Shown: positions 4,436-59,613 of the stretch, one piece after another
How positions within the stretch are numbered: position 1 is the stretch's first letter
Layout of the letters: each line of letters begins with the position of its first letter
Source of the DNA: Selenomonas sputigena
Lineage (GTDB): Bacteria; Bacillota; Negativicutes; Selenomonadales; Selenomonadaceae
Assembly: GCF_026015965.1 (NCBI RefSeq)
Contig: NZ_CP110383.1
Span: forward strand, 1,677,501-1,741,500
Length of the DNA stretch: 64,000 nucleotides
Direction of reading: 5' to 3'
Notes under the pieces: generated by a model
The model's input: the letters and a program-made list of their open reading frames with translations, nothing else
Told to the model about the DNA's origin: nothing
The model's database searches: none
Made by a program: the position numbers and the translations under genes

Positions 4436-4570
4436 AGGATCCCTTCTCTCCATTTAAATAATTTGTAGAAAATTTCCTGCAAGAAACAGGATTCTTTTAT
4501 AGTATTCGCGAAATAAGAGAATTAACCTTCTATAAAACTTCAATAAATCCATTTCCGCAATTAATTTACC

Positions 4571-4663
4571 ATGAAAGTCCAAGAAGTCAAGCCCAGAGGG
4601 CGCAGACTGATTGGCTCTTTCATGTAAGGGCGGCGCACAACGTCCACGAAGCGGACGTTGTGC
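4571..4663 (+). repeat. Dispersed two-hairpin intergenic repeat, copy A
   Basis: Hairpin 1 (4573-4621) pairs GAAAG with CTTTC, CCAA with TTGG, AGTC with GACT and an inner GCCC with GGGC. Hairpin 2 is a perfect 11-bp stem, GCACAACGTCC (4635-4645) with GGACGTTGTGC (4653-4663). Related copies lie near 22.89, 26.98, 41.88 and 54.66 kb. This copy sits between the divergent DAK2-like and FtsA-like genes. Confidence 0.85.
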
Positions 4664-4747
4664 GTGCAGTTTAGCGCGAAAGGCGCAGGAGAAGCACTGG
4701 CAAATGCCTGCGCCGTGCGGAAGCGAGAAGAGCAAAGGAGTCATTCG

Positions 4748-22792: not shown

Positions 22793-22889
22793 GGAAAACA
22801 GCACCCCTTTTATATACCCGCAGGACGCCTCCAAAAGCGTCACCGTTTCTTTTCAACAGCCACTCCACTTTTTCATGAACCATTGTATC

Positions 22890-22932
22890 ATGAAAGCCCA
22901 AGAAGTCAAGCCCGCAGGGCGCAGGCTGATTG
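22890..22932 (+). repeat. Dispersed hairpin repeat, copy B (partial)
   Basis: The left and central parts match copies A and C closely: ATGAAAG, CCAAGAAGTCAAGCCC, then GGGCGCAG and CTGATTG. The distal arm is replaced by the hpf terminator hairpin. It lies just past the 3' end of hpf and upstream of wecA. Confidence 0.75.
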
Positions 22933-22963
22933 AAAAGCCCGCCGGCGCGAAGCACCGGCGGGC
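22933..22963 (-). terminator. Terminator of hpf
   Basis: On the minus strand GCCCGCCGGTGC, a TTCG loop and CGCCGGCGGGC form a strong GC-rich stem followed by TTTTCAA, about 22 bases after the hpf stop. Confidence 0.8.
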
Positions 22964-24152: not shown

Positions 24153-25250
24153 CTAAAATCTCAAGCAACGCGCCATCGCCGCGCGCACGATGCTCTCTGG
24201 CACATCGTCTCGCACGCAGACCTTGCCGATGCCTTCCATGAGCACCCAGTTGACCTTGCCGTCGACCGTCTTCTTGTCGTGGAAGATCGCCGCATAGAGG
24301 CCTTCGACCGTGCAGCCTTCGGCGAACAGTGGCAGTCCCAGACGCTCTGTCAGACGGCGCACGCGCAGGACGTCGGCATCATCGATCATGCCGAGTGCCT
24401 CACTGATGTACGCCGCACCCAAAGAACCGATGGCGACAGCCTCGCCGTGATTGTAGCGCGCATAGCCCGTTTCCTTCTCGATGGCATGAGCGATGGTGTG
24501 CCCGTAGTTCAAAATGCGGCGCAGGCCCCCTTCCTTCTCGTCCTTAGCGACAACCTCCGCCTTGATTTCGCACGAGCGCTCGACCATGAAGAGCGCCGCA
24601 TCATGCGAAAGGCGCAGTGCGTCTGCCGCATGATCTTCGAGAGCGGCAAAGAAATCTGCGTCAAAGATGATGCCATACTTAATGATCTCGCCGAGTCCCG
24701 TGCGGATCTCGCGCTCGGGCAGAGTGGCGAATGTCGCGAGATCGGCGAAAACGGCGGCGGGCTGGTAAAAAGCGCCGATGAGATTCTTGCCGAGGCGATG
24801 GTTGACGGCGACCTTGCCGCCGACGCTTGAATCGACCTGCGCGAGAAGGCTCGTCGGCAGCTGCACGAAGGGAACGCCGCGCATGTACGCCGCAGCGATG
24901 AATCCTGCGAGGTCGCCGACGACGCCGCCGCCCAAGGCGAATACGGGCGAGCGGCGATCAAGTCCCAGCTCGATGGCGTGCGTAAAAATCTCATCTGCAA
25001 CGGCAAGCGACTTCGAGGCTTCGCCTGCGGGCACGAGATGGAGCGCAGGTTCCAATCCCGCCTCGCGCAAGGCTGCCAATGTCCTCTCGCCATAAATCTT
25101 CCCGACATTCTCATCGGAGATGACGAGCGTCTTGTGCGAGAAATTCTGCGCCCTTACGAAATCGGAAATTTCCGGCAGAAGATTCTCGCCGATAAAGATG
25201 TCGTAACTCGCTGCGCCAAGTTCCACGCGCACCTTGTGCATCTCACGCAC
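24153..25250 (-). CDS. aroB: 3-dehydroquinate synthase
   Basis: The roughly 365-residue enzyme of the shikimate pathway converts DAHP to 3-dehydroquinate using NAD and a divalent metal. Diagnostic motifs are ALGGGVVGDLAGF, RGVPFVQLPTSLLAQVDSSV, GGKVAVNHRLGKNLIGAFYQ and the metal-ligand NYGHTIAHAIE, with a later NHGEAVAIG. The start is ambiguous. GTG 25250 has GAAGG eight bases upstream; ATG 25241, three codons in, has only a weak GTGAG. Either overlaps or abuts the end of aroK, so translation is coupled. It is the last gene of aroC-aroK-aroB. No terminator is visible before the cspA promoter. Confidence 0.94.
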   Translation of the reverse strand: MREMHKVRVELGAASYDIFIGENLLPEISDFVRAQNFSHKTLVISDENVGKIYGERTLAALREAGLEPALHLVPAGEASKSLAVADEIFTHAIELGLDRRSPVFALGGGVVGDLAGFIAAAYMRGVPFVQLPTSLLAQVDSSVGGKVAVNHRLGKNLIGAFYQPAAVFADLATFATLPEREIRTGLGEIIKYGIIFDADFFAALEDHAADALRLSHDAALFMVERSCEIKAEVVAKDEKEGGLRRILNYGHTIAHAIEKETGYARYNHGEAVAIGSLGAAYISEALGMIDDADVLRVRRLTERLGLPLFAEGCTVEGLYAAIFHDKKTVDGKVNWVLMEGIGKVCVRDDVPESIVRAAMARCLRF

Positions 25251-26929: not shown

Positions 26930-26980
26930 TATGATTTCCCACTTTCAAAAATATAACCTTCCAACTTTATTTAGTCTACT

Positions 26981-27071
26981 ATGAAAGTCCAAGAAGTCAA
27001 GCCCAAAGGGCGCAGACTGATTGGATAACTTTCGTTAAGGGCGGCGCACAATTAGGAAGCGTCCCCTGTGC
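26981..27071 (+). repeat. Dispersed two-hairpin intergenic repeat, copy C
   Basis: Hairpin 1 (26983-27033) pairs GAAAGT with ACTTTC, CCAA with TTGG, AGTC with GACT and GCCC with GGGC. The following GGGCGGCGCACA block and a weaker second hairpin (27046-27071) match copies A and D. It sits between the pilO stop and the aroC start. Confidence 0.82.
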
Positions 27072-39691: not shown

Positions 39692-41017
39692 ATGAACACA
39701 CCCCGCGCGCGCCAACAGTTGTGCACCCTCCTATTCATCATCGTCAGCCTCCTCGCATTTGCCGGCCCATCCGCCGACGCCGCCGTGCCGCCTAGACCTG
39801 CGCAGCGCGAATACGTCGTCGATGCAGCGGGCATGGTCCGTCCGGGAGATGCCGAACGAATCCGGCAAATCGGCGCGGAGCTGCGCGAGAAAACGAAAGC
39901 GGAGCTCGTCGTCGTGACCGTTGACACCTTGGACGGCACAGACATCGAATCGTACGCCAACGAGCTGTTTCGCAGCTGGGGCATCGGCGACGCGAAGCAA
40001 AGCAACGGCGTTCTCCTGCTCATCGCCAAGGAGGACCGCCAGTTCCGCATCGAGGTCGGCTACGGCCTTGAGGGAAAGATCACGGACGGCTATGCGGGCA
40101 GCGTGCTCGACGCGATGAAGGACGAGTTCCGAAAGGAAAACTACTCCCCCGCTATTCTCGGTGCGTATATAAATCTCGCACAAAAGGCCTGCGAGGAATA
40201 CGGCGTGGGTCTGCAGAGCCTCGGAGCCGCGCTCGGCATACCGGCAAAGCCCGCCAACCTAGGCTATGTGATCGACATGGCGGAACTCCTTACGCCCGAG
40301 GATGCAGCGCAGATTGAACGGATGGGCGGCGATCTCAGCGATGTGACGGGAGTGCAGGCCATCATCGTTACTGTACCGACACTCAAAAAGGTGCAGTCGA
40401 AGCAATATGCCGAGCAGCTTTTTACTGATTGGCAGCTCAAGGATGCCGCCGGCGGAAAAAGCATCCTTCTATTTATCGCCAAGGAGGAAAGAGATGTCCT
40501 CTTCGTCTTCGGTCCCGCCGTATCGGACGCGGAGAAAGGCGACGGAGGGCAATACGTCATCAATCGCATAACTTCCTCTTTCCCCTATGGCAAAGAGGAT
40601 CTTTCCGAGGCGATCGTCAAGGGCTATGCTCTGCTCGGAGAAGATCTGTGCAAAGCAAACGGCGCCACGGTTCCGCAATCAATCGAAGAGGGCGGCAGCG
40701 AGCCCTTCTACGTCTATATACTCGGAGGCCTCGTCGCGATTCTGCTCATCGGACTGCTCATCAGAGTCTTCTATTGCGGACTCGGCATCGTCTTGCTTCC
40801 CTGGTATGCGTTTGCGGCTCTCGTAAGTCTCCTTACCCGCGGCAAAATCAACCTGCCGGGACATGATTACTTGAAAAACATAGCGCCCGCCGGCGGACGC
40901 TATGACGACGACGATGACGATCGCTACAGAGGAGGTTCCGGCGGCGGTTCCGGTAGCGGAGGCGGCGGCTACGGCGGCGGCTCTTCCGGCGGCGGCGGCG
41001 CATCGGGCGGCTGGTAG
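39692..41017 (+). CDS. Secreted/membrane protein with two TPM (TLP18.3/Psb32/MOLO-1) domains
   Basis: The 441-residue protein has a signal peptide (about 1-32, ending SADAAV). Two TPM domains follow, about 38-160 (REYVVDAAGMVRPGDAERIR, LFRSWGIGDAKQSNGVLLLI, RFRIEVGYGLEG form) and about 190-310, the second more divergent. Then come one or two membrane helices (about 335-380), an acidic DDDDDD stretch and a glycine/serine-rich tail ending GGGGASGGW. TPM proteins are membrane-anchored with a roughly 150-residue alpha/beta domain; some bind metals or phosphates, but the role here is unknown. ATG 39692 follows AGGATGTGAGG. It is followed by a single-domain paralogue and lemA, a common trio. Confidence 0.85.
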   Translation: MNTPRARQQLCTLLFIIVSLLAFAGPSADAAVPPRPAQREYVVDAAGMVRPGDAERIRQIGAELREKTKAELVVVTVDTLDGTDIESYANELFRSWGIGDAKQSNGVLLLIAKEDRQFRIEVGYGLEGKITDGYAGSVLDAMKDEFRKENYSPAILGAYINLAQKACEEYGVGLQSLGAALGIPAKPANLGYVIDMAELLTPEDAAQIERMGGDLSDVTGVQAIIVTVPTLKKVQSKQYAEQLFTDWQLKDAAGGKSILLFIAKEERDVLFVFGPAVSDAEKGDGGQYVINRITSSFPYGKEDLSEAIVKGYALLGEDLCKANGATVPQSIEEGGSEPFYVYILGGLVAILLIGLLIRVFYCGLGIVLLPWYAFAALVSLLTRGKINLPGHDYLKNIAPAGGRYDDDDDDRYRGGSGGGSGSGGGGYGGGSSGGGGASGGW

Positions 41018-41038: not shown

Positions 41039-41869
41039 ATGAACTACGCCAAACAACTGCGTACGCTCTTTGCGCTTCTCCTCATGATCGCGGCAATCTT
41101 CGCTTGCGATAGTCCGGCTACAGATGCCGCAGGCGAGCTGCTGCCCAAGCCTGCGCAGAGAGAATACGTTGTCGACACGGCAGGCATCGTCTCGGCAGAA
41201 GATCGCGCACAGATCGAGAAGATCGGCGAAGAGCTGCGCGAAAAGACGAAGGCGGAAATCGTCGTCGTGACCGTCCACACCTTGGACGGTGCAGACATCG
41301 AATCGTATGCGAACAAACTCTTCCGCAGCTGGGGCATCGGCGACGCGAATCAAAGCAACGGCGTTCTCCTGCTCATCGCCAAGGACGACCGCAAGTTCCG
41401 CATCGAAGTCGGCTACGGACTTGAAGGCGAAATCACGGACGGCAGGTCAGGCGAAATCCTCGACAAGATGAAGCCGTACTTCCGCGATGAGAAGTACTCC
41501 GAAGGCGTGCTCAATGCCTATCAGAAGCTCGCCGCCTACGCCTACCGTGCTGCAGGAGTCGCACCGGGCGCTGATGTGAGCGAGACGCTTGAAGACGCGT
41601 CCACGCATGAAGAAGAACCGAGCATCCTGGTGAATGTCCTCATCTTCTTCCTCGCCATCGTCGGCATGATTGTGCTCGGCGTCATCCTGAACTGGCTCCT
41701 CGGCGTCATCAACAACGCACTCGGCCCTGATAGCGGCGGCTCCTCGCGCAGAGACAGAGATTTTTCCAACGACAGCAGAAGCAGCAGCAGAAGCAGCAGC
41801 AGCGGTCCCTCGCGCGGCGGCTACGGCGGCGGCTCTTCCGGCGGCGGCGGCGCATCGGGCGGCTGGTAA
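41039..41869 (+). CDS. TPM-domain membrane protein, single-domain paralogue
   Basis: The 276-residue paralogue has a signal peptide (about 1-30), one TPM domain (about 37-165) that is nearly identical in places to domain 1 of the preceding gene (EELREKTKAE, LFRSWGIGDA, QSNGVLLLIAK), a membrane helix (about 200-225: ILVNVLIFFLAIVGMIVLGV) and a Ser/Arg then Gly-rich tail ending GGGGASGGW. The last 50 or so bases of the two genes are identical, pointing to recent duplication or gene conversion. The ATG at 41039 follows AGAGAGGATG, 21 bases after the first paralogue's stop, so the two are one operon. Confidence 0.85.
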   Translation: MNYAKQLRTLFALLLMIAAIFACDSPATDAAGELLPKPAQREYVVDTAGIVSAEDRAQIEKIGEELREKTKAEIVVVTVHTLDGADIESYANKLFRSWGIGDANQSNGVLLLIAKDDRKFRIEVGYGLEGEITDGRSGEILDKMKPYFRDEKYSEGVLNAYQKLAAYAYRAAGVAPGADVSETLEDASTHEEEPSILVNVLIFFLAIVGMIVLGVILNWLLGVINNALGPDSGGSSRRDRDFSNDSRSSSRSSSSGPSRGGYGGGSSGGGGASGGW

Positions 41870-41876
41870 ACTACAC

Positions 41877-41967
41877 GCACAAACGTCCACTTTGTGGACA
41901 TTGTGCGCCGCCCTTACAGAAGCCTAGCCAATCGGTCTGCACCTTCGGTTTGACCTCTTGGGGCTTC
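41877..41967 (-). repeat. Dispersed two-hairpin intergenic repeat, copy D (reverse orientation)
   Basis: Hairpin 1 (41919-41967) pairs GAAGCC with GGCTTC and, on the element strand, CCAA with TTGG and GGTC with GACC. Hairpin 2 lies at 41877-41890 and 41894-41906 (GCACAAACGTCCAC with GTGGACATTGTGC). It follows the stop of the second TPM gene by eight bases and precedes lemA. Confidence 0.85.
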
Positions 41968-42030
41968 ATGGTAAACCATTCTATATTTGCTCAGTCATTC
42001 AATCGACAGAAACAGAAAGGAGTTTTCAAC

Positions 42031-43373: not shown

Positions 43374-46300
43374 TCAGAATGCCCAGTTTACTCCTACACT
43401 GCCCGAGAAGCCTTCGCGCTTACCCTGCCAACCGCTGAAGTTGACGTCGTAGCTGACGCGGCTCTTTTTCGGTGTGAAGCGATAGCCAAGTTCGAGCATG
43501 GCGCTGCCTCCCTTGAGAGACGGGCTTGGCGTCGCCATGCCCTGATAGGTGGCTCGCGCCTCGCCGTTGAATTCGTATTCCCATGCAAGACCCGCGTAGA
43601 ATTTGCCTTCTTCGCCCATATCGTGCGTGTAGCGAGCGCCGAGTCGCAGGCGGTGCGAGTTGACGGCATCGAAGTCGTAATCCTCGCCTGTCGAGAGCTT
43701 GCCGCTCGTGCCGTTCTGATGCGAGAAGAAGTACTTGAGGTACGTTTCGAGCGCATCGCCCGCCTTGAGCTTCGTCTCCTTCCCCACGCCCAGATGAATC
43801 GCATAATAGGGGTTCGAGATGTCGTAGCTCGTGGACGTGCCGGAAATGTTGCCCTCGTAGTCGCTCTTGATGCGTCCGCCGCGCACGCTTCCTTCGAGGT
43901 AGAGGCCGCTCTTCAGATCCTGCCTTGCGAGGACACCTGCGCCGATGTAGCTGACCTTGCCGCTGCCGTGCGTGCCCGCCGCATCCTCAAGGTAAGAGTC
44001 GTAGCTCGCCCTGCCGTATTCGACGAATGGCCCAAAGGTCAGCGTGCTGTCCTTGCCATCCTGCTTTCTTGCGAAGCCGACATTCAGCGTGTAGCCGTGC
44101 GTGTCGACGTAGGAGCCCGAATGGATGCGCACGGAGGAGCCTCCCTGCGCCGCCCATGCCGTGTATGCGCCCGACTGCACATTTGCTGCAGATGCCGCCT
44201 TTGCACTCGGCGCCTTGTTTGTCGCCATGGGAGCGGCCTCGACCTGAGTGTTGGCATTGGCGGAGGCTGCCGCTTGGACAGCGGCGGAGACGCCCGCATC
44301 GGCGATCATCGTCATGCCGCCTCCCAAGACGTCCGTCGCCGTCGTCCTCGTCTCCGCGAGGGACTTCGTCGCGTCCTTCATCTTTACACTCTCGACAGCG
44401 GCGATCAATTCATCCGCGCCCTTCTTCTGCACGCGGAACTTGTAGTCGAGCGATACGCCCTGCGTACCCGTGACCTCGCCCTTGATCTTCTCGTCCGTCG
44501 TCAACGTGCCGCCTTCAGCAACCTTCATGAGACTGAAGACATCCTCGCGCTTGAGCGTCTTGGCCGCGCCCGAGAGGTTGAGGTCAACGTTCAGACCCTT
44601 GATGTCCTTGTCCTTGACGCCGAGCCTCAGCATCGTCGCCATGGAAGATTTCGCCCCTTCGGGCAGGTAGAACTTGAGGTTCTGAATGCCCTTGAAGTCA
44701 CCGATCTCCGTGCCGGCGGCGCGAATGGCGAGGACGTTCGCCTTGCCGTCCGCCGCCGTGCCGCACGTGACAGTACCCTTGATCTTCGTGCCGAAGAGGT
44801 TGATGACATTGCCGTCGGTCTTCTTACCCGAGCCGCCGTAGACGTTCGCGCCGATGTTGACGGCACCGAGGTTAAGGATGTTGCCCGAAGCTTCGCCCTG
44901 CGCGGCATAACCGCCATAGATTTGCGCCTGCGTGTCCTTCTGCACCTCGACGGTGTTCTTCGTGGCATCGCCCGCGCCCTCGACAAAGCCACCGTAAGCA
45001 TTTTTGAGCGTGCCGCCGGCGAGTACGAGGGTATTGTCCGTGACCGCGCCCTTGGCGCTCAGACCGCCGTAGGCCGCCTCCGTCAGCGTGCCGCCCTTGA
45101 CGGTCAGCTTGTTCCGCTGCACAGTGTTGCCGATGATGGAGCGTCCGCCCCAAGCCGCCTTGTTGTCGCCCGTCTCATAGACAGAGTCCGCATTGTTCTG
45201 GAAGCGGAAGCCGCGCACGACGACCTTTTCCGCCGCCGCGCCCTTCGCCGCATCGGCTTCCTTGGCAATCGCGTATTCATAATCGCCAACGGTCTTTTCC
45301 TTCGCCTTGTCGTAGGTCGTGCCGAAGTCAATCCCCTTGTCATTCGCCATCAGCGAGAACAATTCTTCACGCGCCACACCCGTGCGCGTCGCAAGGGAGG
45401 CTTCGTCAAGGCCTGTGGTTTCAACCTTCTGCCAATCAAGCCCCGTTGTCTTCTTGCCGCCGTTGAGCGTCAAGATCGTGTCGCCGGCCTTCGCCATACT
45501 CGTGTCGAAGTGGAGCTTCTCGAAGTTCTTGATGTCTCCCGCGCTCTGTATTCCCGTGACGTTCAGCGTATTTCCCGCCGCGCCGTTGTTGCCGCCATAG
45601 ATCGTCCCCGTGACCGTACCGCCCGTGAAGTTCACGGTGTTGCCCGTGGTCTTTCCCGACGTGCCGTCGGCCTTCTTACCCGTCGACCAGCCGCCGTAGG
45701 CGTCCTTGAGCGTACCGCCCGAGATCGTCAGAGTGTTGTCCGTCGCATCGTTGCCAAGTACGGAGCGCCCGCCCCATGCTGCATCGTGTGCGCTGTCGGC
45801 TTCGCCGTATGTCGCCGTGTTGCCATGGAAGCGATAGATTTCTGCGTTGACGGCCTTTGCCTGCGCCACATGCGTATCCGTGTCAAGGACAGCCTCATAG
45901 TCGCCCTTGGTCACGCCCTTGGCGCCGATGGGCGCATAAGTGTCAACACCGCCCTTGCGGAAGTCGATGCCCTTTTCATTCGCCATGAGCGTCAGGCGGT
46001 ACGCTTCGTAACTCTTGACCGCAGGCTTGAATTCATCAAGCGTGACATTCGTCCAGTCAAGACCCTCGGTCGCAGCCGCACCGTCGAGCGTCAGGAGCGT
46101 CGTGCCGCTCGCCATCGTGTCTCTGACATGGAACTTGACGCTCTCGAAGTTCTTGATGTTGCCTGCCGCGATCTTGCCGCTGACATTCAGGACATTACCC
46201 GTGGCGTCGCTGCCGCTGCCGCCGTAGATCGTGCCCGTGATTTTCGCGCCGTCAGCGACATCATGGAACACGCCCGCCTCGTCCGTATAGCCGATGTTGA

Positions 46301-49300
46301 CGGTGTTCTTCACCGTCTTTCCCGTGCCGCGCGTGTAGCCGCCGTAGACGTTCTTTGCCGTACCGCCCGCGATGTTAACGGTATTCTCCGTCACATCCGC
46401 CGCATTCGCTACGCTGCCGACGTAACCGCCGTAGACCTCTTCAAGCGTTCCCTTGCCCGTACTCAAAAGGTTCACGGTGTTCTTGACCGCACCGCCCGCA
46501 GTCCCCTCCGAGCGTCCGCCCGAAACGTACTGGAGCGTCTTACCCTCGGAGATTCCCTTGAGCGTGAACGCGTTTCCTTCCGCCGTATTGCCGCCGTAGG
46601 AAACGCCAGCGTAGGTCTTAGCATTGTTGTCGCCGTTATGATAGGTGACGTCGCCGTTTCGGAAGCGGTTCACATCGATAAGGACGGCGTTCGCCTCGCT
46701 CGTATTCGTGTCCGTGCGCTGGACGACCTCATAGTCGCCGCTCACGGCATGATTCTTCGCCGCGTAGTTCGAGAACTTCAGCTTGTTCGCCGCCGTGCTC
46801 TTCATCAGCGTGATCGCGCCGAGCGTCTTGTCTGCGGAGAGCTTCGACGTATCGACCGTGACCTTGCTCCAGTCCGCCGTCTGTCCGTCGAAACCTTCTG
46901 CAAGCGTCAGCATCGTGCCGCGACTCTTGGTGAAGGTGTCGTCGACGACCCCGCTCTTCGGCTTATCGGCGGCAATATGGTCAGTCAGATGGAACGTATA
47001 GTTCTCGAAGTTCTGCGCCTTCTTTGCCGCCGCATCCTTCGCCTTGACATTCAGTGTGTTGCCCGTGACGTCGCCTGCATTGCTGCCGCCGTAGAGCGTC
47101 GCAGCCGAAAGATCCGTACCCGTCGCGAGCGTCGCGGCCGTACCGTCGCCGAGGTTCACGGTGTTGCCCGTCGTCTTGCCCGCGCCCGTCGTGTAGCCCG
47201 CGTAGATATTGCCCGCAGCCTTGCCTCCCGTAATCGTAACGGTGTTGTCCGCAGCATTGCCGCCCGTGCTGTATCCCCCGTAGAGATCGCCTGTGACTTC
47301 CGCGCCTGCAAGCGTGACGGTATTGCCTGTCACCGCAGCAGCGCCGTAGCCGCCATAAGCCGCTGCGGTCTTGCCGCCCTGCAGAATGAGACGGTTCTTC
47401 GTCACAGCGCCGGAGGCGGCAGAATTCAGACCGCCGTAAGCCGCTGTCGTCAGTTCGCCGCCCGTCATGGTGAGGGTATTGTTCGTGACGGTGTTGCCGA
47501 TGGCCGAGCGCCCGCCCCATGCCGCCACATGCGTCGCATCTGCGGCCGTATACTCCGCCGTTTCATTGTTTTGGAACTGATAGCCTTCCAGGAGAATGCT
47601 CTTCGCCCTTGCCAGATGCGTATCCGTATCTATGGCAAGCTCAAAATTCCCGTTCGTCTCCCCCCGCACGCCGAGCGTATCCGCCGCGCCCACGCCGGGC
47701 TTCGTGAAGTCCAGCCCGGCTTCGTTATGGAGAAGCGTCAGGCGGTACGCCTCATAGCTCTTGCTCTCCGGGGTAATGACAGACCCCAGCTTGACCTTTG
47801 CCCAATCCAGCCGCGTCGTTGCACTGCCGTCATTGAGTGTAAGCAGCGTATCGCCCGACTGCATCGTATTGTTGAGGTGGAATACGACGTTCTCAAAATT
47901 TTTGATATTGCCCGCCGTCATCGTGCCCTTGACGTTCAGCGTGTTGTCCGTCGCCAGATCCTTGCTGCCGCCGTAAATCGTACCTGCGACGCGTGCACCC
48001 GCGGCGACGGCGTTCGTTCCGTCACCGAGGTTGACCGTATTGCCTGTCGTCAAGCCTCCGCCTGCTGTATAACCCGCATAGATATCTCCCGCAATCGTGC
48101 CGCCCGTGACCGTGACGGTATTCCCCGTCGCGCCCGCGCTCGCGGCATTGTTGATGTAACCGCCGTAGACATTCTTCAGTGCATGCGTACCCGTTCCTTC
48201 GACCGTCACGCTGTTGCCCGTGGAGTCGCCCGCCGCGCCCGCATTCTTGCCGCCGTAAACGGCGTCGATATCGGCGCTCAGATTGGTGATCGTCAGATGA
48301 TTGCTCTTCGTCGTATTCCCTACATAAGAGATACCGCCGTAGATTTCGCTCGTCGAAGTCCCGTCGTCATGCGGCATCGTGTACGCCGCAGTTGACCCGT
48401 CGTACGTTGCGTCCGTATTGTTTTGGAAGCGGTTGTAGTCGAGGAGGACTTCGCTCGCCGTACCCGTGTTCGTATCCGTGCGCAGCGCCGTCTCGTAGTC
48501 GCCGTTCGTCACGGCCGTCGTCTTGTCGCGACCCGTATAGGCCGAGAAGCGCAGCGCATTCGCCGCATCGCTCCTGAGGAGCGTCGCCTTGCCGATGACC
48601 GTGTCGCCCGAAAGCTTCGATGTGTCGATGTCGAGCCTGTTCCAATTAACTGTCTCGCCGAAGCCGTCCGTCCCCTTGAACGTGAGCATTGCGCCGCTGC
48701 CCGTTCCGTTCCGCGCGATATCGTCCGTCAGATGGAAGACATACTTGCTGAAGTTCTTTGCCGTCTTGACCTTGATATCCTTTGCCTTGACGTTCAGGGT
48801 ATTGCCTGTGATGACCGTACCGCTGCCGCCGTAGATCGTCGTATTCTCGAGGTTTGTCCCCTCTGCAAGACGCTCCGTCGTGCCGTCGCCGAGGTTGACA
48901 ATATTGCCCGTCGTCCTGCCCGAGGGGGCGCCGGAAAAACCGCCGTAGACATCCTTTGAAAAAGCGCCGCCCGTGATCGTGACCTCGTTGTTCTCCACTT
49001 TCCCATTGGAAAGGGAATATCCCCCGTAGACATTTTTCGCGAAAGTGCCGCCCTTGATTCTGAGCTTATTGTTCGATGCTTCCCCATTGCCCTGGATATA
49101 GCCGGCATAGACAGGGCCGCCCACCGAAGCGCTGCCCTCGATCGTGACCGTATTGCCGGACGCCTTGCCGGCATTGATGGAATGACCCCCAAAGACCGTA
49201 TCACCGATCGCCGCATCCTTGATCGTCACTTCGTTTTCCGTTACGGTCGCGCCCGACTTGCCGTAAGCCCCCCAGACGTCCTTGTTGACCTGCCCCCCGT

Positions 49301-52082
49301 CGATACGAACCTTGTTCCCCGTTGCCACGTCGCCGCTTTCAAGGTAGGCGGCGATTACACTGTCCCGAACCGTGCTGTTTTCAACGGTCACAACATTGTT
49401 GCTCGTGTCCTCCTTGCCATAGGCACCGCGAACGCCGACGGTAACCGTGGCATTTTTAACCAAAACAGTATTATCTGCCGCTTTTTTCGCTGCCCATCCG
49501 CCAAAAATTTGTCTGACCTTGCCGTTTTCCAGCACGACACGATTGCCTGTCGCATTTCCGGCAACCTTCGCCCAGCCGCCAGTCACAAAGCCCTTGGCCT
49601 CGCCGCCGGTGATCGTGACGATATTGTCTTTCGCCGTGCCCGTGCCTTCCGTGTAGCCGCCGTAAAGCGCGGCGCTGAAAGGGATGCCGACCTCGCCTTT
49701 CTTCAGGTTGACCTTGTTGCCGACGACATCGGCTGCATTTGCCTCATCCCCGATAAATCCGCCGTAGACGTTTTTGATCTTGCCGCTTTCCAGCTCGACG
49801 TTCACTGTATTGTTTTCCGAGCCGCCCGCCGCGCCCGCAGTCTTTCCGCCGTAGACGGCGTACAGCTCGCCGCCGCCCGGTGTTCCCGTCACAGTCAGCT
49901 CGTTGTTCTCCGTCTTGTTCCCGTGGTAGGAAACGCCGCCGTAGACCTCGCTCTCCCCATCCGCCATGACGGGTGCTTCTGCACCGTTATAGTTCTGCCT
50001 GCCATCCTTGAAGCGATTCATGCGCAGATAGACCGAGGTCGCTTCCACCGTGCCGCCGTTCTCCGTCGCCTCGTCGTCCACCGTCACGCTGCGCTCGAGG
50101 CCGTCCGCCGCGCCGATGTACGCATCGCGGTCAGACAGCTTGAGCGCGCCTGCCACACCGCTCTTGATGAGCTCCACGCGCGAAAAAATGCGGTTCTTGT
50201 TCGCCTCGCTCCATTCCGCAAGGCCGTCCAACGCGATGTCCTGATCGATGCGGGCGGTGCTGCCGCCGAAGCCGTCCTGCGCGATCGTCAGCATCGTGGC
50301 TTCCTGCGGCGTGTTCGCATGGAGGAAGAACTTGTACGTCTCGAAATTCTTCACCTTGTCGACTGCGACATTCCTCGCCTTGACATTCAGCGTGTTGCCC
50401 GTCACATCACCCGCATCGTTGCCGCCCGCAAGCGTCGCGGCTGAGAGATTCGTGCCCGCCGCGAGCGTCGCGGCCGTGCCGTCGCCGAGGTTCACGGTGT
50501 TGTTCGTCGTCTTGCCCGCGCCCGTCGTGTAGCCGCCGTAGACCTCGCCCGTCACCGTGCCGCCCGTGATCGTGACCGTATTCGCATTGACCTTGCCGCT
50601 CGCATTGGAGGACTGTCCGCCCTTGAGCGTGTTGACCGTACCGCCGTTGAACGTCACCGTGTTGCCGCTCACCGTGCCCGCGCCCGAGGCACTGCCGCCC
50701 GTCACGCTGATGAGCGCTCCGCCGTCGATGGTGACCGTATTGTCCGTGACATCGTTGCTGTTCGCCGCCCAGACATTTTCACCGCCAAAGACATTGTTGA
50801 CCGTCCCCTTCTTGACCGTGACCGTGTTGCCCGTCACCGCGCCGTCCGCCGCGCCCCGCGCACGCGTATAGCCGCCGTAAAGCATCGTGATCGTGCCCGT
50901 TCCCGTGTCCTCGACCGTCACGGAGTTATTCTTAGAGCCGCCCGTCGCGATGGTCGGATGCTGCTCTGTCTTGCCGCCGTAGGCCTTGATCGAATCGCCC
51001 GCAGCAACGCCCGTAATCTTGAGCTGATTGTTTTCCGTTGTATTGCCGTACTTCGAAAGCCCGCCGCAGACTTCCTTATCACTGCCGACAAGCGTCGGCG
51101 GCGTTGTCCCGTCGTATGTCGCTTGCGCTTCGGTCACATTCTTGAACTGATTCGCACCAAGGAGGAGCTTCTGTGCCGTATTCGTGCCGGTATTCGTCGT
51201 GATGCCGATCTCATAATTGCCCGCCGTGCTGTATACGCCGCTGCCGCCCGTGAAACTCAGCGAGTTCGCCGTCGCGCCCTCGACAAGCGTCAGCTCTATC
51301 GAACGCGCCGTCTGCGCCGCCATCCACGCACCGAGTCCCGTCTCGTCCGCCTTGACCTTCGACCAGTCAAGTGCGCCCGTACCAAGGCCACCCTGCACGA
51401 GATGCAGCATCGTCGAACCCGCCGCAATCTTATCGTTCAGGACAAAATTATAGGTATCAAAGGCATCCACTTCTTTCACGGTAATGCCCGACGCCTTGAT
51501 ATTGAGCGTATTATCCGCACGAGAACCGCCGCCCGATTTGGCGCCGTAGATACTCGCTGTGCTCAGGTCAGTACCCGTCTTGAGCGTCGCCGTCGTACCG
51601 TCGCCGAGGTTGACCGTATTGTTGCTCTGATTGCCGTTCGCCCAGCCTGCCGCGACGAAGCTCGTAACCTTGCCGCCCGCAATCGTGACGGTATTATTCG
51701 TTGCAGCGCCGCCACTCGCCATACCGCCTTGAACATAAGCGACTTCCCCGCCGCTGATGAGCACGGCATTATTCGTTGCATCACCGCTGCCCGCCGTGCC
51801 GCCGCCGCGAAGATTGGAAACTTTGCCCCCGTTCAGGATCGCGTGATTGCCCGATGCCTCTGCCGTACTCGTACTATTCTCGATATAGCCGCCATAAAGG
51901 GAGCCCACTGCCTGCCCGTTCCCGATGGTCGCCGTATTGCCCGTGACCGCACCCGTGCCGAGCGTATAGCCGCCATATATATCCTGCACCATGCCGTTGG
52001 TGAGCGTCGCCGTGCTGCCGGAAACCCGTGCCCGCATTGCTCGTATTGAGGATTGTGCTGCCATAGACATTTTGCACACCAA
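43374..52082 (-). CDS. Giant modular autotransporter, main part (passenger repeats and beta-barrel), downstream of a frameshift
   Basis: About 2,880 codons continue the protein begun at 53571 after an apparent one-base frameshift near 52025. The passenger is built of beta-helix-like units (GNTVTI-x-GG, YGGY) and about eight long modules, each with NTLNVKAK, a following F-x-x-Y-x-F and, later, NRFRN-x-ATYNG. A Pro/Ala linker leads to a C-terminal barrel of about 270 residues (from WAAQGGSSVRIHSGSY) ending GFSGSVGVNWAF, with the terminal Phe required for outer-membrane insertion. It is a type V secreted surface protein, probably an adhesin. The first in-frame ATG is 52082, but it lies before the frameshift point and has no ribosome site, so this half alone would not be exported. 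Confidence 0.85.
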   Translation of the reverse strand: MVCKMSMAAQSSIRAMRARVSGSTATLTNGMVQDIYGGYTLGTGAVTGNTATIGNGQAVGSLYGGYIENSTSTAEASGNHAILNGGKVSNLRGGGTAGSGDATNNAVLISGGEVAYVQGGMASGGAATNNTVTIAGGKVTSFVAAGWANGNQSNNTVNLGDGTTATLKTGTDLSTASIYGAKSGGGSRADNTLNIKASGITVKEVDAFDTYNFVLNDKIAAGSTMLHLVQGGLGTGALDWSKVKADETGLGAWMAAQTARSIELTLVEGATANSLSFTGGSGVYSTAGNYEIGITTNTGTNTAQKLLLGANQFKNVTEAQATYDGTTPPTLVGSDKEVCGGLSKYGNTTENNQLKITGVAAGDSIKAYGGKTEQHPTIATGGSKNNSVTVEDTGTGTITMLYGGYTRARGAADGAVTGNTVTVKKGTVNNVFGGENVWAANSNDVTDNTVTIDGGALISVTGGSASGAGTVSGNTVTFNGGTVNTLKGGQSSNASGKVNANTVTITGGTVTGEVYGGYTTGAGKTTNNTVNLGDGTAATLAAGTNLSAATLAGGNDAGDVTGNTLNVKARNVAVDKVKNFETYKFFLHANTPQEATMLTIAQDGFGGSTARIDQDIALDGLAEWSEANKNRIFSRVELIKSGVAGALKLSDRDAYIGAADGLERSVTVDDEATENGGTVEATSVYLRMNRFKDGRQNYNGAEAPVMADGESEVYGGVSYHGNKTENNELTVTGTPGGGELYAVYGGKTAGAAGGSENNTVNVELESGKIKNVYGGFIGDEANAADVVGNKVNLKKGEVGIPFSAALYGGYTEGTGTAKDNIVTITGGEAKGFVTGGWAKVAGNATGNRVVLENGKVRQIFGGWAAKKAADNTVLVKNATVTVGVRGAYGKEDTSNNVVTVENSTVRDSVIAAYLESGDVATGNKVRIDGGQVNKDVWGAYGKSGATVTENEVTIKDAAIGDTVFGGHSINAGKASGNTVTIEGSASVGGPVYAGYIQGNGEASNNKLRIKGGTFAKNVYGGYSLSNGKVENNEVTITGGAFSKDVYGGFSGAPSGRTTGNIVNLGDGTTERLAEGTNLENTTIYGGSGTVITGNTLNVKAKDIKVKTAKNFSKYVFHLTDDIARNGTGSGAMLTFKGTDGFGETVNWNRLDIDTSKLSGDTVIGKATLLRSDAANALRFSAYTGRDKTTAVTNGDYETALRTDTNTGTASEVLLDYNRFQNNTDATYDGSTAAYTMPHDDGTSTSEIYGGISYVGNTTKSNHLTITNLSADIDAVYGGKNAGAAGDSTGNSVTVEGTGTHALKNVYGGYINNAASAGATGNTVTVTGGTIAGDIYAGYTAGGGLTTGNTVNLGDGTNAVAAGARVAGTIYGGSKDLATDNTLNVKGTMTAGNIKNFENVVFHLNNTMQSGDTLLTLNDGSATTRLDWAKVKLGSVITPESKSYEAYRLTLLHNEAGLDFTKPGVGAADTLGVRGETNGNFELAIDTDTHLARAKSILLEGYQFQNNETAEYTAADATHVAAWGGRSAIGNTVTNNTLTMTGGELTTAAYGGLNSAASGAVTKNRLILQGGKTAAAYGGYGAAAVTGNTVTLAGAEVTGDLYGGYSTGGNAADNTVTITGGKAAGNIYAGYTTGAGKTTGNTVNLGDGTAATLATGTDLSAATLYGGSNAGDVTGNTLNVKAKDAAAKKAQNFENYTFHLTDHIAADKPKSGVVDDTFTKSRGTMLTLAEGFDGQTADWSKVTVDTSKLSADKTLGAITLMKSTAANKLKFSNYAAKNHAVSGDYEVVQRTDTNTSEANAVLIDVNRFRNGDVTYHNGDNNAKTYAGVSYGGNTAEGNAFTLKGISEGKTLQYVSGGRSEGTAGGAVKNTVNLLSTGKGTLEEVYGGYVGSVANAADVTENTVNIAGGTAKNVYGGYTRGTGKTVKNTVNIGYTDEAGVFHDVADGAKITGTIYGGSGSDATGNVLNVSGKIAAGNIKNFESVKFHVRDTMASGTTLLTLDGAAATEGLDWTNVTLDEFKPAVKSYEAYRLTLMANEKGIDFRKGGVDTYAPIGAKGVTKGDYEAVLDTDTHVAQAKAVNAEIYRFHGNTATYGEADSAHDAAWGGRSVLGNDATDNTLTISGGTLKDAYGGWSTGKKADGTSGKTTGNTVNFTGGTVTGTIYGGNNGAAGNTLNVTGIQSAGDIKNFEKLHFDTSMAKAGDTILTLNGGKKTTGLDWQKVETTGLDEASLATRTGVAREELFSLMANDKGIDFGTTYDKAKEKTVGDYEYAIAKEADAAKGAAAEKVVVRGFRFQNNADSVYETGDNKAAWGGRSIIGNTVQRNKLTVKGGTLTEAAYGGLSAKGAVTDNTLVLAGGTLKNAYGGFVEGAGDATKNTVEVQKDTQAQIYGGYAAQGEASGNILNLGAVNIGANVYGGSGKKTDGNVINLFGTKIKGTVTCGTAADGKANVLAIRAAGTEIGDFKGIQNLKFYLPEGAKSSMATMLRLGVKDKDIKGLNVDLNLSGAAKTLKREDVFSLMKVAEGGTLTTDEKIKGEVTGTQGVSLDYKFRVQKKGADELIAAVESVKMKDATKSLAETRTTATDVLGGGMTMIADAGVSAAVQAAASANANTQVEAAPMATNKAPSAKAASAANVQSGAYTAWAAQGGSSVRIHSGSYVDTHGYTLNVGFARKQDGKDSTLTFGPFVEYGRASYDSYLEDAAGTHGSGKVSYIGAGVLARQDLKSGLYLEGSVRGGRIKSDYEGNISGTSTSYDISNPYYAIHLGVGKETKLKAGDALETYLKYFFSHQNGTSGKLSTGEDYDFDAVNSHRLRLGARYTHDMGEEGKFYAGLAWEYEFNGEARATYQGMATPSPSLKGGSAMLELGYRFTPKKSRVSYDVNFSGWQGKREGFSGSVGVNWAF

Positions 52083-53891: not shown

Positions 53892-54674
53892 ATGCAGCTT
53901 CCTGAGCGCATCAATCTTCACTTGCACGAACTCAGCGATGCCGACAAAAGCATCTGGCGCTTCATCGAGAGCCACAAGGAGACGGCCTGCCGCGCCTCCA
54001 TTCATGACCTCGCGCGGCTCTGCGCCGTTTCGAGCGCGTCCGTCGTGCGCTTCGCGCAGAAGATCGGCTTCGAGGGCTTCGGCGAGATGAAGGCGGTGCT
54101 CAAGATGGAACTCGAAGAGCGCGGAAAGCCCGACCGCGACATCCTGACGTCGCTGAGCCAGTTCTACGATCAGTCATGGCGCGAACTCATGGCGCGCGAC
54201 TATCGCGGCGCGAGCCGCCTCGTCCACGAGGCGCACCGCGTCTTCGCCTACGCTTCGGGCTATGTGCAGACGAACGTCATGCAGGAACTCAAGCGTCTCT
54301 TCCTCTACGACAATGTCTTCATCTGCGAGATCGCAGGGCGCGAGGAGTTCTATTCCGTCTATCAGACGGCGGGGCCGGACGATCTCTTCGTCTTCATCTC
54401 GCTTTCAGGCGAATCCGAGCGCGTCAAGGAGTTCTCCGAGAAGCTGAACCTCAAGGGCGTGCCGCTTCTCGCCATCACGCAGATGCAGCACAACACGCTC
54501 GCGAGCCGCTCGACAGAGAACCTCTACGTCGTGCCCGCCGCCTTCAACCTGCCCAAAAGCGAGGAGCGGCTGCCGTTCAAGTCCATGCTCGCCTACTTCC
54601 TGCTGCTTGAGATCTTCTACGTCCACTACCGTCTCTACCGCAGCGAGCAGGAAAATGCCCTTACAGAAGCCTAG
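53892..54674 (+). CDS. MurR/RpiR family transcriptional regulator
   Basis: The 260-residue protein has an N-terminal RpiR helix-turn-helix (about 1-77), IHDLARLCAVSSASVVRFAQ, then KIGFEGFGEMKAVLKMELEE. A C-terminal SIS sugar-phosphate-binding domain follows, with YASGYVQTNVMQELKRLFLY and LFVFISLSGESERVKEFSEK. Such regulators sense phosphorylated sugars, so control of the downstream alpha-glucoside PTS genes is likely. The ATG at 53892 follows GAAAGGAG at nine bases. Its last codons and stop (ALTEA then TAG) lie inside hairpin repeat copy E, suggesting that the element's insertion set or trimmed the gene's 3' end. Confidence 0.92.
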   Translation: MQLPERINLHLHELSDADKSIWRFIESHKETACRASIHDLARLCAVSSASVVRFAQKIGFEGFGEMKAVLKMELEERGKPDRDILTSLSQFYDQSWRELMARDYRGASRLVHEAHRVFAYASGYVQTNVMQELKRLFLYDNVFICEIAGREEFYSVYQTAGPDDLFVFISLSGESERVKEFSEKLNLKGVPLLAITQMQHNTLASRSTENLYVVPAAFNLPKSEERLPFKSMLAYFLLLEIFYVHYRLYRSEQENALTEA

Positions 54675-54717
54675 CCAATCGGTCTGCGCCTTTGGCTTGA
54701 CCTCTTGGGGCTTCTGT
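54657..54717 (-). repeat. Dispersed hairpin repeat, copy E (reverse orientation)
   Basis: The outer stem is a perfect nine pairs, ACAGAAGCC (54663-54671) with GGCTTCTGT (54709-54717). Inner pairs CCAA/TTGG and GGTC/GACC match copy D. The second hairpin is missing. It contains the stop codon of the RpiR gene. Confidence 0.85.
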
Positions 54718-59464: not shown

Positions 59465-59613
59465 GGCAAGCCCGAAGGGCGCAGCCGCACAGGCAATAGG
59501 TCGCATGTGAAAACGTCCCAAGAACGCGAGCCGAAGGCGAAGCGCAATTGGCTGACGTTGACCACCCGGGGTCCGCTCAGCGGAGAAACCCTCATTTTAA
59601 AGGAGGAGCAGCC

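Follow-up and report, generated by a model that had tools for sequence, protein, structure and literature searches.

A dispersed intergenic repeat of Selenomonas sputigena, built around a structurally conserved hairpin, is mobile. The sequence-only reading had proposed a family of dispersed intergenic hairpins with a conserved fold, and our analysis supports this interpretation. Three properties go beyond that proposal: a second hairpin, mobility, and the spread of the first hairpin (hairpin 1) outside Selenomonadaceae. The reading we favour, to which we give about an even chance of being correct, is that the repeat is a non-autonomous mobile DNA element resembling bcr1 and REPs, with hairpin 1 read by an enzyme encoded elsewhere.

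The window, a stretch of 64,000 nucleotides, covers positions 1677501-1741500 of the 2.61-Mb single-contig genome G000. Extraction and alignment recovered all five proposed copies in their proposed positions. Their shared core of about 50 bases held up as hairpin 1, but proved to be part of a larger unit whose hairpin-2 side is missing in copies B and E. Copy A (4568..4670, plus strand) is a full unit running from AC to GCAGT, with hairpin 1 at about 4571-4623 and hairpin 2 at about 4635-4663 according to alignment, model R1 and folding. Copy B (22888..22933, plus strand) retains only the left part of hairpin 1 and continues into a terminator-like palindrome; at this site the congener G001 carries an IS200-type element together with one full and one partial unit. 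Copy C (26978..27051, plus strand, model R1) consists of hairpin 1 and the linker with a broken hairpin 2, and its site in G001 holds two units. Copy D (41870..41974, minus strand) is a full unit lying one base past the stop codon of a TPM-domain gene (41039-41869). Copy E (54657..54717, minus strand, model R1) comprises hairpin 1 and the start of the linker and supplies the TAG stop codon (54672-54674) of an RpiR/SIS-domain gene (53892-54674); a full and a partial unit occupy its site in G001. A sixth, divergent hairpin 1 at 59508..59564 (plus strand; model R2, E 1.8e-9) is without the TTAC left end, and the surrounding stretch differs in G001. Model R1 matched the five copies at E 2.8e-32 to 2.4e-6 and the sixth near 59504-59600 at E 1e-5; the matches of both models arise partly by construction, since the model-building sequences include window copies.

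Other features were observed in and around these loci. The IS200-type element at the copy B place in G001 (locus L113) lies between the two repeat units at about C1:2040600-2041350, with its Y1 transposase at 2040773-2041129. The same locus contains a 280-bp MITE-like insertion (about C1:2043700-2043980; missing at window position 24153) with inverted ends GGGAGCGYTGATAAA and TAA repeated on both sides; it encloses two hairpins that resemble hairpin 1 but differ in stem sequence. Within the window, two 300-nt stretches at 39773-40072 and 41126-41425 (plus strand), 81% alike and 1,353 nt apart, are probably neighbouring paralogues, because the second lies in the TPM-domain gene. A 2,902-aa open frame at 43374-52082 (minus strand), made up of numerous divergent repeats, each about 40 nt or longer, perhaps encodes a large surface protein.

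Full units measure about 107 nt. After a TT they read AC-YATGAA, hairpin 1, a TAAGGGCG linker, hairpin 2 and GTAGY, followed by another TT; the borders are YTTAC on the left and YTTRY (GTAGYTTRY) on the right. From the outside inwards, hairpin 1 has an outer stem with two to three bulged bases on its 3' side, followed by CCAA/TTGG. A GA/GA internal loop separates these from a four-pair stem, and an AA/GCA internal loop lies between that stem and a three-pair stem closed by a short loop. Copies occur on both strands of G000, often in tandem, and head-to-tail pairs and triplets repeat at intervals of about 107 nt, with TTTAC common to adjoining units. Most fragments are shortened at the end opposite the left, T-run-joined end. 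The right half may be replaceable, since it is of three kinds in the own genome (hairpin 2, a longer module ending in CCTGAAAG, or nearly missing) and since unrelated hairpins take its place in other genera, where hairpin 2 was judged by reading to be quite different in sequence with a hairpin still there.

Related unit types were also seen. Five G000 loci (L433, L434, L435, L432 and L436) hold a second type that shares the left end and hairpin 1 and has a longer right module, bounded by GTGAGGACATATGTACAGC and GAACATATGTCCTGAAAG. Tandem 121-nt units in a Clostridia MAG (bin.48; L237, 6962-7142, plus strand) have the left end TTTACCATGAAAGT, hairpin 1 as in the window, and a different second hairpin with arms GCTTAGC..GAGCTTAGC. 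The left half of copy A can be read as the short peptide MKVQEVKPRGRRLIG; we dropped peptide coding because loop length differs by 1-2 nt from unit to unit and the substitutions track the stems.

Folding of four copies gave z scores of -3.75 to -5.46 with DNA parameters and -4.24 to -5.85 with RNA parameters, and the covarying hairpin 1 lay within the minimum-energy fold of 4/4 and 3/4 sequences, respectively. The compensatory base changes from which a conserved fold had been argued exceed shuffled and slid controls both in the own genome and in a set of 116 distinct sequences. The own-genome alignment comprised the 42 full units found among 58 BLAST places, with the 16 partial places excluded. 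In these units, 63 cells were changed on both sides of a pair, compared to 21.7 ± 5.8 after shuffling (0/500), and the covariation score was 0.143 compared to 0.083 (0/500); slid controls reached at most 11 cells. Double changes affected 7 pairs, a number reached by 32/500 shuffles, and there were 25 pair types, which 331/500 shuffles reached. Hairpin 2 gives no covariation evidence within the own genome, because no double changes occur there.

Wider alignments extended this result for hairpin 1. A likeness filter reduced 248 pattern matches to 49, from which 48 diverse hairpins were aligned (A4); they showed 84 double-sided changed cells compared to 26.2 after shuffling (0/500) and a score of 0.397 compared to 0.118, with slid controls at 19 cells or fewer; neither the count of doubly changed pairs nor that of pair types rose above the shuffles. 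The constancy of CCAAGA, CAAG, CGCAG and GATTGG in this set is due to the way it was selected, as the search pattern fixes them. From 100 loci, a further alignment (A5) drew 130 model matches, 116 distinct and 86 after likeness filtering. The 116 distinct sequences, from many groups, contained 480 double-sided changed cells compared to 165 after shuffling (slid controls at most 148), with double changes in 14 of 17 pairs (0/500 shuffles), in an alignment that was fitted to the model and hence leans towards the structure. In the 86 non-redundant model-found sequences, the unpaired columns are nearly fixed as GA, AA, G-(C or A)-A and GA. Across phyla, therefore, the stems of hairpin 1 are rewritten pair by pair and the GA/GA and AA/GCA internal loops are kept. 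Rare G-T pairs in the first set had hinted at a DNA form; this hint weakened in the larger set, which held 15 G-T pairs among 904 core cells versus 5 A-C pairs.

BLAST with copies A and D located 58 places in the G000 stretches searched, including the 42 full units on which model R1 was built. At E <= 0.01, R1 found 124 matches in G000 and 128 in G001 (150 candidates scored in each), bearing out the expectation of tens of genomic copies and of further copies in relatives. Within the family, 72/189 genomes and 16/30 genera had matches, no more than 19 candidates being scored in each genome. A crude ORF reading placed 37/42 G000 clusters outside ORFs, and the clusters had no preferred orientation to neighbouring genes (10, 9, 8 and 6 in the four arrangements). 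The claim that no named repeat family matches also stood for Rfam, where no match at gathering score overlapped the repeat: in an Rfam 15 search of the window four tRNAs were the sole families at that score, and permissive searches of 17 loci (9 + 8) yielded no overlapping match near it. Our literature search, which left most subscription papers outside its reach, found no paper describing this repeat by title or abstract.

Comparisons of close relatives revealed sites that are filled in one genome and empty in another. G000 and G001 share 92-98% identity in long matches of one 20-kb region, and the joined flanks of 17 G000 sites were sought in G001. Four sites were filled in G000 and empty in G001 (610317, 927681, 1374950 and 1404752, the last with a diverged left flank). 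Site 235320 was also empty in G001, the filled G000 site having 14 extra bases at its left. Four sites were filled in both genomes (903519, 1371089, 1930264 and 1942621), the G001 counterpart of 90687 was too diverged, and the remaining seven matched on one side, partly, or not at all. Synteny identified two more: 270290, which is empty in G001 and in G000 carries 10 additional bases at the left, and 1822361, empty in G000 where G001 has an array of one full and one shortened unit. When 10 sites of G003 were sought in G002 and G004, L138 and L133 were empty in G004, the L133 pair being only 81% identical. Array copy number likewise differs between G000 and G001 at 1859289, 2010320, copy C and copy E. 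Eighteen G003 units are nearly identical in different flanks, albeit among top-scoring matches, a choice that favours likeness.

In the seven filled/empty pairs without extra bases, a T-run adjoins AC on the left and GTAGY adjoins TT on the right (TATAGT before TT at 610317); the other 2/9 insertions, 235320 and 270290, are those with 14 and 10 extra left bases. TT stands at both ends in the seven pairs, and as the target is itself a T-run, duplication and element end look alike. At L138, the empty site reads TTTTCC and the filled left junction TTTTAC. TT precedes AC at 17/17 G003/G004 sites and 31/38 G000 sites. Perfect stems of at least six pairs occurred near the junction at 5/17 G003/G004 sites (50 shuffles: mean 0.24, highest 3) and at 4/38 G000 sites (mean 0.52, highest 4), so that the link to terminators is clear in G003/G004 only; this test set aside 6 G000 places that had no anchor and 13/68 flanks that neighbour another unit.

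Units thus sit in T-rich sites, sometimes in the T tract of a terminator, and have TT at both ends; from this we propose the following route. An enzyme encoded elsewhere would recognise hairpin 1 as extruded or single-stranded DNA, possibly through the fixed GA/GA and AA/GCA internal loops, and the stems may therefore drift while still pairing. Arrays could arise when a new unit inserts into the TTTAC that a previous unit has left behind. The element behaves as a passenger moved by an enzyme encoded elsewhere, and we infer that hairpin 1 is the likely recognition signal.

We searched for such an enzyme among two protein families. PF01797 (Y1 transposases of the IS200/RAYT type), for which a control search was positive in 5/14 known genomes including E. 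coli, was found in 72 of the 189 family genomes searched, including the carriers G001, G144, G177, G184 and, weakly, G171. These genes, together with the hairpins, their intergenic dispersal, the arrays, the GTAG at one end and the inverted hairpin-1 pairs of Patescibacteria, speak for a REP/REPIN-type element moved in trans by a RAYT or IS200-like HUH Y1 transposase since lost from some genomes. We nevertheless regard this explanation as quite unlikely. PF01797 had no match in G000, G002, G003, G004 or G170, although the G003 copies look fresh. No transposase was found beside copies among those neighbours that were identified, a non-systematic sample. IS608 has the target tetranucleotide TTAC; an IS608-like TTAC target was dropped here, because the empty L138 site shows that a fixed TTAC is not needed. 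Unlike IS200/IS605 elements, the repeat has no lagging-strand-template bias: co-oriented to opposed copies numbered 33:35 in G001 and 29:29 in G000 among the R1 matches listed (31:27 in G000 with shifted limits), with sampled GC skew and a DnaA-like ORF at the beginning of G001 used to place origin and terminus. An earlier bias of 28:14 among 42 clusters, obtained by hand count with a guessed origin, vanished with the GC-skew origin and terminus and the R1 matches.

The position of GTAG also separates the repeat from REPs. REPs are dispersed intergenic hairpins with paired stem changes that form clusters and whose termini can supply stop codons, as outlined in the available text (PMC3733652), and in being an intergenic hairpin dispersed in many copies, with stem-pair changes and clusters, our repeat is alike. 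However, the accessible description of REPs puts GT[AG]G on the 5' side at the foot of the hairpin and assigns them to a TnpAREP gene (PMC6006769), whereas GTAG here lies 3' of hairpin 2, preceding hairpin 1 only inside arrays, and the RAYT/TnpAREP gene was not found in G000 or G002-G004. The published GTAG list, in the portion available, names no Firmicutes (PMC3733652).

The second family searched was the reverse transcriptases. RNA-mediated retroposition, in which a host or mobile reverse transcriptase would prime a reverse transcript on T-runs, would suit a left end joined to a T-run and fragments mostly shortened at the other end. We consider it very improbable, given that RVT_1 (PF00078), present in 11/30 genomes searched, is missing from G000, G003, G004, G170, G171 and G177. 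The carriers G000, G003, G004 and G170 lack both the Y1 transposase and the reverse transcriptase.

Among known systems, the repeat that we read as a bcr1/REP-like passenger would appear to work most like bcr1, and like REPs. The accessible text on bcr1 describes a small, MITE-like repeat that is intergenic and present in tens of copies, and suggests a mechanism resembling site-specific recombination tied to one or more TTTAT motifs (PMC6542083); bcr1 is often found in UTRs, according to the part available of a second source (PMC3446304). Compared by description only, the units here are bounded by TTTAC/TTTAT-like sequence, which may correspond to that motif, but bcr1 is said to be confined to the B. 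cereus group. With MITEs, the repeat shares small size, non-autonomy, strain polymorphism and a short repeat at the ends, but its ends TTTACTATGAA and GTGCGTGTAG are, by reading, not inverted repeats of each other. TIGR arrays, as far as the available text describes them, are tandem hairpin units with spacers reported also in Patescibacteria (PMC12045711). The tandem units and the Patescibacteria occurrence are alike, but a TIGR-Tas array reading was set aside because the variable bases of both hairpin-1 arms pair with each other. Integron attC sites carry RYYYAAC and GTTRRRY boxes at their ends; in contrast, the ends here are YTTAC and GTAGYTTRY, with no attC boxes.

Hairpin 1 extends far beyond the family. 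Its consensus is CCAAGA-NNNC-AAG..loop..CGCAG-NNN-GATTGG inside a freely varying outer stem, and the exact pattern (21 fixed bases) occurs in at least 119 stretches of a 257-Gb genome collection, compared to a chance expectation of about 1 if base composition is even. The records include Peptococcaceae, Lachnospiraceae, Oscillospiraceae, Alkalibaculum and Pseudoramibacter (Clostridia), and also a betaproteobacterium, a Chloroflexi and several Patescibacteria. Most of these records are MAGs, so that an individual one could be misbinned. Viral contigs had no match to the exact pattern. Model R2, built on the 48 diverse hairpins, matched 35/35 genomes, all picked for having a match or as known carriers. 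G000 had 111 matches, an Oscillospiraceae MAG 85 and a Patescibacteria MAG of 0.8 Mb 39; the betaproteobacterium had 3 and the Chloroflexi MAG 1. In an even draw across the phylum with stricter filters, 14/398 genomes matched, including G000. The distribution of hairpin 1 is patchy.

Patescibacterial hairpins often sit exactly at gene borders. Among 40 stretches from five MAGs, interpreted with a simple ORF reading, 20 hairpins directly adjoin the start of an ORF that runs the opposite way. Another 9 begin at the preceding ORF's stop codon, and 11 show neither arrangement. Ten adjoining genes, hand-picked from 17, encode L15, L20, L27, L33, DnaA, DnaJ, a Clp-N protein, a signal peptidase, phosphoglycerate mutase and ATP synthase b. 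In several stretches, a long palindrome and a second, inverted hairpin follow. The patescibacterial hairpins could represent this kind of element, tolerated at gene borders alone, or could be in regulatory use; their start- and stop-codon positions also fit a regulatory role and in this respect count against the mobile-element reading. Hairpin 1 could then be mainly an RNA element, acting in mRNA stability, processing or as a leader and kept for its function at gene borders, with mobility secondary. These positions, the housekeeping nature of the ten hand-picked neighbours and the excess of G-T over A-C pairs in the core favour such a role. Nonetheless, we think it rather unlikely: the G000 clusters have no preferred neighbour orientation, G-T pairs make up only 15 of the 904 core cells, and sites are polymorphic between close relatives.

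Returning to the mobile-element reading, we propose a broader hypothesis, tentatively and with less than even confidence. Hairpin 1 could be one ancient recognition hairpin of a mobile intergenic superfamily in Bacillota, Chloroflexi, a betaproteobacterium and Patescibacteria, served by a single widespread recombination machinery that is neither a HUH Y1 transposase nor a reverse transcriptase. In the compact genomes of Patescibacteria, it would have been domesticated as an intergene spacer whose ends provide stop and start codons.

Small dispersed repeats are usually regarded as limited to one genus or order and as associated with a known transposase. Here, instead, the unpaired bases of one hairpin are kept and its stems rewritten across very distant bacteria, and several carriers rich in copies lack both of the mobilising enzyme families that we tested. 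With carriers that hold dozens of copies, some nearly identical, the question is directly testable. Identifying the reader of hairpin 1 would uncover a new route of mobilisation or, alternatively, a new regulatory hairpin.
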